Below are positions 3,690 to 10,393 of a stretch of DNA of 29,954 nucleotides, one piece after another. Position 1 is the first letter of the stretch. Each line of letters starts with the position of its first letter. The translations under genes were made by a program, and so were the position numbers. The notes beneath the pieces are model-generated. The model ran no database searches and had not been told where the DNA came from. It saw only the letters and a list, made by a program, of their open reading frames with translations. The DNA is taken from positions 1 through 29,954 of the IMG/VR virus record IMGVR_UViG_3300028008_000074; one strand, 5' to 3'. Origin of the DNA: a virus.

Positions 3690-3785
3690 GCTTCTGGCTC
3701 CTGTTTTAAAGTTAGTGGGCGGTTCTTGGGAAACCTGCCGCCCTTCAGGCTCTTAAACCCACTAGGATATAGTGTGTCCCAAGAA
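3690..3785 (-). other. Structured gap between annealing protein and SSB-like genes
   Basis: This 96-base gap contains a perfect 9-bp inverted repeat (TTCTTGGGA at 3723-3731 and TCCCAAGAA at 3777-3785) enclosing smaller stems such as CCTG/CAGG. A GGGCGG/CCGCCC pair competes with it. An open frame of 71 codons (3620-3835, minus strand) also runs through it. It could be an attenuator, a processing site or a small overlapping gene, and I cannot decide which. Confidence 0.35.
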
Positions 3786-4235
3786 TTACCATCCGTTGCT
3801 TTTGTTACCACTGTCTTGATCATACTTGTTGCCATCCATCTTACCTAAGAAGATGTCAGCATCACAGCCAATGTGCGACAGTGCTTTGGTTAGGCCATCA
3901 GTAATAGCCATCTTCGGTGCATCTTCAGCCATACGACCCTTAGCTGCATCAAAGAACTTACGGCACCCTGTGAAGGGGCCAAATGAATTTGCTGGCGATG
4001 TATGCCAGACAGTAACATGCGCTAGCACAGCGCTGTCTCCGTTGCTTACAGGCACAATCTCTGTTGTGTTGTGCCAGCCCCAGCCATCACCGACTGCTCC
4101 AAACTGTTCGGTCATCTTTCTGACTTGGTATTGCGGGTCGATGGCGGTGAATGATCGGCTTCCGAAGCTAACCTTCTTCAGATATTTGGGGTCTGAAGAG
4201 GCTAGCTTGTTCCAGATGTCGAGGTTATTAGTCAT
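3786..4235 (-). CDS. Single-strand annealing protein, Rad52/ERF-like
   Basis: A 149-residue protein. The centre has YQVRKMTEQFGAVGDGWGW (about 36-54), then strands with AHVTVWH, and a conserved ending KMAITDGLTKALSHIGCDAD followed by IFLGKMDGNKY. The (K/D)xAxTDGLxKALxxxGxxADxxLGxxD signature is typical of phage annealing proteins related to Rad52/Sak and ERF. These bind single-stranded DNA and pair it with complementary DNA. The gene begins 2 bases after the YqaJ-type exonuclease ends, the classic exonuclease-annealase pair. An AAGGAG ribosome site precedes the ATG. The protein is short for the family and ends soon after the core. Confidence 0.7.
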   Translation of the reverse strand: MTNNLDIWNKLASSDPKYLKKVSFGSRSFTAIDPQYQVRKMTEQFGAVGDGWGWHNTTEIVPVSNGDSAVLAHVTVWHTSPANSFGPFTGCRKFFDAAKGRMAEDAPKMAITDGLTKALSHIGCDADIFLGKMDGNKYDQDSGNKSNGW

Positions 4236-9086: not shown

Positions 9087-9147
9087 GTCGTTCTCTCTTT
9101 CTCATTAAGTTGTGTTATTGTCTTTCGACACTAATCGGAAGCGCCGT

Positions 9148-9294
9148 CTAGTTGTCCAAGTCAAGATCGCGAAGCGCCAGCTCTGCTGGGAAGTCTTGAC
9201 TTTGACGGCTAGTCGACGCCCGAAGTTCTTCTATTGCTCTGTTTACTTCTGCTAGTTTATCTTCCAATCTATCTATCCATTCATGATACTGCAT
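9148..9294 (-). CDS. 48-aa coiled-coil peptide, first early gene
   Basis: A short frame beginning MQYHEWIDRLEDKLAEVNRA, one regular amphipathic helix, and ending with acidic LRDLDLDN. GGAGAAGACA lies at good spacing before the ATG at 9294. The composition and ribosome site match the other early genes, so it is probably real. Its 3' end overlaps a 45-base hairpin (9158-9202). No family is recognised. Confidence 0.5.
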   Translation of the reverse strand: MQYHEWIDRLEDKLAEVNRAIEELRASTSRQSQDFPAELALRDLDLDN

Positions 9295-9330
9295 TGTCTT
9301 CTCCATAAGTTAATAGGTTATTGTTCAAAA

Positions 9331-9845
9331 GAACGCCTGTGGTCACGGCTAATCTTAGGTGGCGGGTCAAGGCCCGAAGGCCAGCTTCGCTGGGCCAGCA
9401 ATGATGCAACGTCAACTTGATTGACGTAGCGTCATTGTGCAGAGCCTTGAGTCGTCATGATCAATCACCTGTGCGGGGAATTACACCCGCTCAGAGATTG
9501 ATCTATCCTTAGATTAGTCGAACCCACATAGAAAAACAGGGGGGGTAAACGGTCATCATTCCGATGATCGTTTAGTCGAAACACTTTGCGGGAGCGTGTG
9601 AGCGACCCCCTCAACTGAGTCGCAACTAAAAGACTATTCAGCCCACATCTTAGGGGCTGAATGTCTATCGGTACGCTGGGGTAGGCTAGCGGGTTGCAAG
9701 GGTGGCCTTTGAACCCTGCTTGGCGAGTCATGGCTCAATGCCATGATACGCCAATCGCGTTAGGTGCAGCAGCTTTGCCGAGTACCATGTACTCGTCGCG
9801 CTTGCGCGATGCAATGCCGACCCCGCTTGCGGGGGAACGCCCTGT
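9331..9845 (+). ncRNA. Candidate long structured noncoding RNA or leader
   Basis: This is the only long gene-free stretch (about 720 bases, 9295-10018). It holds at least nine stems. They are 9371-9396 (9 bp with a bulge), 9399-9437 (17-base arms) and 9459-9503 (8 bp plus GCGGG/CCCGC). Next comes a three-way junction closed by GGGGGT 9541-9546 with ACCCCC 9605-9610 and containing 9547-9573 and 9581-9599. Then 9636-9662 (9 bp), 9696-9719, 9722-9752, 9779-9795 (7 bp), 9796-9809 and 9821-9834 (both with G(CUUG)C loops). Imperfect pairs in these stems are G-U on the plus strand (9405/9431, 9552/9568, 9727/9747; also 9500/9515 in an alternative stem). On the minus strand these would be A-C clashes. 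Two counted lines are 62 and 65% GC against about 42% in a coding line. No known RNA class was recognised, and promoter and 3' end are not defined. Confidence 0.45.
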
Positions 9846-9883
9846 CAACTGTAATAATCAAGTGTGACGTAGGGTAATTAGTA

Positions 9884-9903
9884 TAGTTACGTAACGTCAC
9901 TAT
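9884..9903. repeat. 20-bp repeat, copy 2, next to a TTGACA box
   Basis: TAGTTACGTAACGTCACTAT, 19 of 20 bases as at 8146-8165. It holds the perfect palindrome GTTACGTAAC, and an inverted half-site, GTGTGACGT, lies at 9862-9870. A consensus -35, TTGACA, follows at 9903-9908 on the plus strand, pointing to the small terminase, although no good -10 is seen. This is probably the control region between early and late blocks. Confidence 0.45.
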
Positions 9904-9933
9904 TGACAACCAATGTAGGAATAGTGTCGTAAT

Positions 9934-9956
9934 GGGGGGAGAGAGGGAGAGGGGGG
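9934..9956 (+). other. G-rich tract before the small terminase gene
   Basis: Runs of 6, 3 and 6 G residues separated by AGAGA and AGA. This could form a G-quadruplex or be a recognition element for packaging. A similar tract lies at the end of the gene (10387-10403). Confidence 0.3.
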
Positions 9957-10018: not shown

Positions 10019-10393
10019 ATGGTTCCAGCAAACAAGAAGCTGACTGATAAACAGACAGCGTTAGTAGACACGATTGTAGCAAAAGGTTGCACGATAGCAC
10101 AAGCAGCAGAGTTGGCTGGATATGCTAAGGGTGAATCTGGAAGAGTGACTGCAACCAAGACAATGAAGTTGCCACATGTGCAGCAGTACCTGATGCAGCG
10201 GATGAATGATGAGTTTGGATTAAGTGCTACCTTGGCTGCTGGTACAGTGCGTAGGTTGGCTACGAGTGCTAAGTCTGAGTATGTTCAGCTTGAAGCTAGC
10301 AAGGATTTGCTGGATCGTGCTGGGTATAAACCCATTGATCGTTCTCAGGTTCAGGTGGCGGGGGACATAAAGGTTTCAATTGATCTGGGGTAG
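10019..10393 (+). CDS. terS: Terminase small subunit
   Basis: A 124-residue protein. LTDKQTALVDTIVAKGCTIA and then QAAELAGYAKGESGRVTATK form the N-terminal helix-turn-helix of the Terminase_2 small-subunit family. A LPHVQQYLMQRM helix, an oligomerisation region and a short C-terminal tail (VQVAGDIKVSIDLG) follow. It recognises the phage packaging site and loads the large subunit, encoded 2 kb downstream. An AGGGGTGAC ribosome site precedes the ATG. It is the first gene of the rightward late block, separated from the large subunit by nine small genes instead of lying next to it. Confidence 0.75.
   Translation: MVPANKKLTDKQTALVDTIVAKGCTIAQAAELAGYAKGESGRVTATKTMKLPHVQQYLMQRMNDEFGLSATLAAGTVRRLATSAKSEYVQLEASKDLLDRAGYKPIDRSQVQVAGDIKVSIDLG

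Follow-up and report, generated by a model that had tools for sequence, protein, structure and literature searches.

The pRNA of phage phi29 is a ring-forming RNA that drives the packaging ATPase. In plasmid ColE1, where RNA II and RNA I stem from opposing transcription, a structured RNA of ~0.5 kb lies before a G-rich tract, and a primer is cut from RNA II after its 3' part has hybridised at the origin. The put antitermination RNA of phage HK022 is a structured RNA of a phage control region, which acts downstream of its promoter. Finally, GOLLD and ROOL are large and ornate structured RNAs of phages and prophages whose function is unknown (PMC12286853). The locus described here belongs to IMG/VR record IMGVR_UViG_3300028008_000074, which may be a fragment and whose whole analysed stretch of 29,954 nt is called the window below. 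Its best reading is a putative new modular family of plus-sense phage non-coding RNAs placed in the control region between early and late genes. Like GOLLD and ROOL, the element is large and ornate. However, these RNAs have conserved folds of their own and are often, if not strictly, found near tRNA islands, whereas ARAGORN found no tRNA gene in the window, and the present element lies beside the terminase genes, where early and late genes diverge, and matches no Rfam family. Indeed, neither the window nor any of 20 relatives gave a match to Rfam 15 at gathering threshold, permissive searches returned unrelated low scores only, and no match was obtained for the families that an earlier note on this DNA had proposed to check (GOLLD, ROOL, group I and II introns, pRNA). 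As for phi29 pRNA, position ties a structured phage RNA to packaging; in addition to the lack of an Rfam match, however, this phage has genes for both terminase subunits, and not all relatives with these genes carry the RNA. No description of the element was found in the open-access literature searched.

The leftward genes, at ~2.7–9.1 kb, encode a RecE-like exonuclease, an exonuclease, and SSB-like and RusA-like proteins, and those running rightward from position 10,019 encode the small and large terminase subunits, a head-tail adaptor, and major head, tail and internal virion proteins. The slot that holds the element lies between the leftward early genes and a rightward late-promoter-like element with the terminase small subunit gene terS (Table 1). 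In the 29,954-nt window, which may not cover a complete genome, none of the genes was recognised as coding for a DNA polymerase, helicase, primase or RNA polymerase. By TerL, the closest cultured relative is the Pelagibacter phage EXVC031P Hodr (67%), the only one found for this phage group and a distant one. The GC content, already reported as raised, is 0.49–0.51 here versus 0.33–0.45 across most late genes (500-nt windows), and the GC skew reverses near the structured region. The start codon of the small early gene at 9149–9306 marks one end of the module shared by the relatives, the other end being the operator region. This ORF keeps its C-terminal motif, RQSQD(F/Y)PAELALR, in the relative L104, while its N-terminus is swapped among relatives. 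A long hairpin at 9141–9219 lies inside it, and since the gene carries the conserved protein motif RQSQD-PAELALR, the paired changes of this hairpin may reflect a coding constraint.

On the plus strand, the 515-nt region 9331–9845 folds at −245.5 kcal/mol (z −10.62; none of 100 shuffles folded as well), whereas coding-sequence controls gave z values mostly between +1 and −2. The stems listed in the earlier note were recovered in place, including the junction closed by 9541–9546/9605–9610, which the predicted fold contains with a 12-bp hairpin and the GC-GGGA-GC hairpin; folded alone, this junction exceeds chance only moderately (z −2.97). Folding better than chance is seen on the minus strand as well, at −216.4 kcal/mol (z −7.65).

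Table 1. Positions of the structured element, its parts and the adjoining control region in the window
Feature	Positions	Strand	Remarks
Small early ORF	9149..9306	−	On direct reading, the start at 9294, preceded by a Shine-Dalgarno sequence, is likelier
Structured RNA module	9292..9845	+	Common to 12 IMG/VR contigs at ~88–97% identity
Multibranch domain	9338..9528	+	Closing helix 9338–9359/9507–9528
Three-way-junction domain	9358..9456	+	Outer stem, CCAGCYYYGCTGG hairpin, and long hairpin with a CUUG-type loop
Long hairpin	9398..9438	+	Apical helix swapped for a different helix in L080/L082, L084 and L086
Hairpin arm	9459..9503	+	Compensatory changes in L095
Nearly invariant core	9520..9680	+	3 variable positions in 9 distinct sequences, single-stranded stretches included
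Second three-way junction (that of the earlier note)	9535..9615	+	Essentially invariant in homologues
14-bp hairpin	9720..9754	+	G-U/A-U and U-A/U-G exchanges; pairing preserved on plus only
Exchangeable 3' hairpin block	9755..9840	+	Swapped as a unit in L084, L086, L088 and L090 (four sequence types)
TTGACA	9843..9848	−	Conserved; may be an early-promoter element or operator
Tandem palindromes, GTGACGnnnCGTCAC type	9864..9900		Conserved in many relatives; probable operator
Minus promoter-like site	9880..9909	−	TTGTCA-18-TATACT
Late promoter-like element	9903..9933	+	Conserved TTGACA and a −10-like box ending in T; abuts the purine tract
Purine tract	9934..9956	+	GGGGGGAGAGAGGGAGAGGGGGG; between the late promoter-like element and terS
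terS	10019..10393	+	Terminase small subunit gene (phrog_2538)

The region had been reported to lack homologues, which was wrong. Exact-pattern scans of IMG/VR, which saturated at 12 contigs, provided a set of near relatives (class A), and more divergent copies exist besides. A pattern scan of genome collections for the class A motif gave no matches, and BLAST of the element against cultured phages gave nothing real. For nine distinct class A sequences, the RNAalifold consensus holds 165 plus-strand pairs, 8 of them with double compensatory changes, and leaves 4 cells unpaired in 1475 (99.7% paired); none of 500 shuffles matches these measures, and slid structures give 0–2 double-change pairs. 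Within the multibranch domain, long-range pairs covary, with C-G replaced by A-U in L095 and with G-U/A-U and U-A/U-G changes, and L095 has an extra hairpin inserted in the 9459–9503 arm. The second junction says little about pairing by itself because its sequence is conserved: its sole pair supported by covariation is 9581/9599, A-U becoming G-C in L090/L095. The adjacent terS genes are only ~74–85% identical in contigs whose modules are ~88–97% identical, and conversely L002 and L003 encode TerS proteins that are 99% identical but differ in their slot DNA; the module therefore appears to spread by recombination. The description of the region as devoid of genes was nearly right, although an ORF of ~50 aa on the minus strand adjoins its left edge. 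The only ORF across the core is an open minus-strand frame at 9465–9731 (88 aa), which could in principle make this a protein-coding region whose repeats merely resemble structure. This frame is interrupted by stop codons in L085 and in L086 and by a frameshift in L095, and the coding reading, to which we give virtually no chance, was rejected for the core.

Evidence from more distant phages comes from the 9358–9456 three-way junction. A covariance model of this domain (R2), trained on the class A near relatives only, finds it in ten further contigs (L104, L076, L051, L002, L174, L048, L154, L073, L075 and L159; E from 5e-10 to 0.003), each time 5' of terS and in constant orientation. Domains of this type lie ~310–500 nt before the conserved purine tract and terS. 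By contrast, a covariance model of the second junction (9535–9615) found no relatives outside class A. Additional contigs were collected by a pattern scan that disregards structure, using the conserved 16-mer GCCCAACTGGAAGTTA, which follows the domain closely on its 3' side in the divergent group; in ~40 contigs, the domain is found 11–13 nt upstream of GCCCAACTGGAAGTTA on the same strand. Among 28 distinct sequences, 27 of the 35 domain pairs show double compensatory changes, with 95.3% of cells paired. The covariation score reaches 0.608, versus 0.204 after shuffling and at most 0.096 for slid structures; this alignment was fitted to the model and leans towards the structure, the effect being large against both controls. 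Covariation among homologues, on which the earlier note had staked the RNA, is thus present in both sets (8/165 class A pairs and 27/35 domain pairs). The 9358–9456 domain, a different junction from the one highlighted before, is the best-supported part of the element. Selection keeps a multi-helix secondary structure of the encoded nucleic acid, and one divergent three-way-junction domain is common to many phages, in a fixed slot and a fixed orientation. From its sequence, the element is, with high probability, a real structured RNA.

Which strand folds was addressed by a nearly strand-symmetric test, in which both strands were folded with Watson-Crick pairs only and 1x1 mismatches within helices were counted. 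The class A element gave 7 G-U and 0 A-C mismatches, as expected from the previous reading that its odd pairs are G-U on the plus strand and never favour the minus strand. For 26 representative slots, which are not fully independent, the G-U:A-C ratio was 68:13, whereas dinucleotide shuffles gave 119:64 (p 0.002) and coding DNA gave 39:28 (p 0.0008). The domain consensus energy is −47.2 kcal/mol for plus versus −32.6 for minus, fold energies in the more divergent group are −152 (plus) and −129 (minus), and all one-sided changes in the clear class A helices preserve pairing on plus only. Other measures are less one-sided: the class B elements of other relatives fold slightly better on minus (RNAalifold), and pairwise-substitution counts on Watson-Crick-only folds are 249 for GU and 173 for AC (28:24 in class A), with many helices in weakly structured relatives probably spurious. 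Taken together, the folding strand is very probably plus, and the plus-strand structured RNA proposed in the earlier note gains support from covariation, from the constant orientation of homologues and from several strand tests.

Two other readings bear on this choice. The structure could form in a minus-strand RNA, as the 5' leader of the early operon that runs leftward, where it would control early translation, transcript stability or antitermination. Such a leader agrees with the divergent minus promoter-like site to the right of the structure, with the fold of the minus strand beyond chance, and with a gap of ~10–15 nt, in several relatives, between the end of the structure and the Shine-Dalgarno sequence that serves the first early gene. 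We nevertheless regard it as unlikely given the G-U over A-C asymmetry, the consensus energies and the one-sided changes of the clear class A helices. Alternatively, the element could act at the DNA level, as hairpins of single-stranded plus DNA at an origin or a packaging site. Inverted repeats would persist for single-stranded DNA as well, which tolerates G-T better than A-C, and an origin or pac region could plausibly lie in a slot next to terS; however, a covarying three-way junction, conserved unpaired stretches and swapped helix modules are typical of RNA, and contig ends, which a cos or terminal site would concentrate at the purine tract, are not clearly enriched there. The DNA-level reading is quite improbable. 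A plus-sense structured RNA remains the likely identity of the element, an assignment we make with good confidence.

The control region right of the structure combines palindromes and overlapping divergent promoter-like elements at 9864–9909. These are conserved in the family and form a candidate operator of the early/late switch. A second operator-like palindrome copy, inverted, was seen in L077 (positions 3780–3840), ~1 kb left of the main one. Leftward transcripts from the 9880–9909 site would, by geometry, read through the structured region. On the other side, the purine tract GGGGGGAGAGAGGGAGAGGGGGG is exact in 46 of 73 relatives selected by terS, with similar variants in many others. At least 120 IMG/VR stretches contain it, nearly always with terS right after it, and among contigs of another exact-match scan that had enough downstream sequence, terS came next in all, bar one chance match. 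In genome collections, a scan for the tract matched two contigs (L208 and L209), in MAG bins assigned to Rhodobacterales and Euryarchaeota. They are probably phage contigs in bins, too weak a hint to name a host. The tract is near mirror-symmetric and prone to RNA:DNA hybrids or G-quadruplex formation. The likeliest reading is a late promoter that starts transcription inside it. Since this promoter would sit downstream of the structured RNA, the latter is not obviously part of the late mRNA.

This geometry weighs on the reading of the element as a leader of the late mRNA, for instance a put-like antitermination RNA. It has the orientation of the late genes and lies directly 5' of them, and a 20-kb late operon transcribed by the host polymerase, as suggested by the absence of a recognised RNA polymerase gene in the window, might need antitermination. 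Like put, it would be a structured RNA in a control region of a phage that probably uses the host RNA polymerase, but it is several times longer, and here a conserved promoter-like element is found between the structure and terS. We therefore give the late leader a small chance. Whereas the earlier note had left a free RNA and a late-operon leader side by side, a free plus RNA fits better and the leader is not favoured.

The same tract invites a comparison with ColE1. Size, a G-rich tract downstream and, as predicted from the sequence here, opposing transcription are alike in both systems, with no sequence match between them. A replication pre-primer of this kind would fold co-transcriptionally on plus, hybridise by its G-rich 3' part at the purine tract and prime the host DNA polymerase. 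A structured RNA of ~0.5 kb directly before a conserved G-rich purine tract, the nearby turn in GC skew, and a window in which only RecE-like exonuclease, exonuclease, SSB and RusA-like proteins were recognised, with no polymerase, helicase or primase, are consistent with it. Yet the late promoter can also account for the tract, as its initially transcribed region, the structure is missing from some phages bearing the tract, divergent genes alone would be expected to turn the skew, and the record may be a fragment; the pre-primer is thus improbable. Similarly improbable is its extension to a large modular plus-sense RNA family that would occupy one slot at the early/late switch, with interchangeable hairpins and even non-homologous structured replacements, and would act in cis as a ColE1-like pre-primer with the purine tract as the hybrid site. 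If true, this would be a pre-primer family in phages without a recognisable replication polymerase.

The content of the slot varies across the phage family. Class B relatives (L034, L077 and others) carry a different, strongly folding sequence in the same slot, L006, L060 and L122 have little structure there, and the equivalent slot of EXVC031P Hodr (L097:4215–4360) holds a long hairpin that is nearly perfect (z ~−5.5 on both strands). The class B sequence at L034:880–1010, and likewise in L077, L067 and L016, opens with a hairpin, GCGAGGACCACCCTCGC, whose stem varies and which immediately precedes the Shine-Dalgarno sequence of the early gene. For the family as a whole, a role that is accessory or modular is a better fit than one needed by every member.

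With plus as the folding strand, the simplest account is a separate plus-sense non-coding RNA of ~350–550 nt, and a free RNA seems fairly probable as against a leader. Its promoter would lie at the slot's left edge, where a sigma-70 weight scan for a plus promoter gave no clear peak, and no terminator for the plus RNA was recognised. Once made, it may fold as a scaffold that displays the invariant unpaired stretches, and regulate the early/late switch. The start of the leftward early transcripts has to lie within the structure or to its right; a minus leader RNA therefore probably exists too, and the plus and minus transcripts would be complementary. By this geometry, the plus RNA would be antisense to the leader of early transcripts from the divergent minus promoter, and is probably regulatory. 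A free plus-sense RNA regulating the early/late switch is tentatively the best explanation overall, although it still falls a little short of being probable. The mechanism we favour, though more doubtful, is that such an antisense RNA would damp expression of the early genes once infection is late.

GOLLD, ROOL and other large structured phage RNAs form a small group of unknown function. The element presented here would add a further family of this kind, absent from Rfam, with strong covariation in dozens of contigs. It is located at the control point between early and late genes, adjacent to the terminase genes, and its function may be testable because the slot is fixed while the modules are exchanged.
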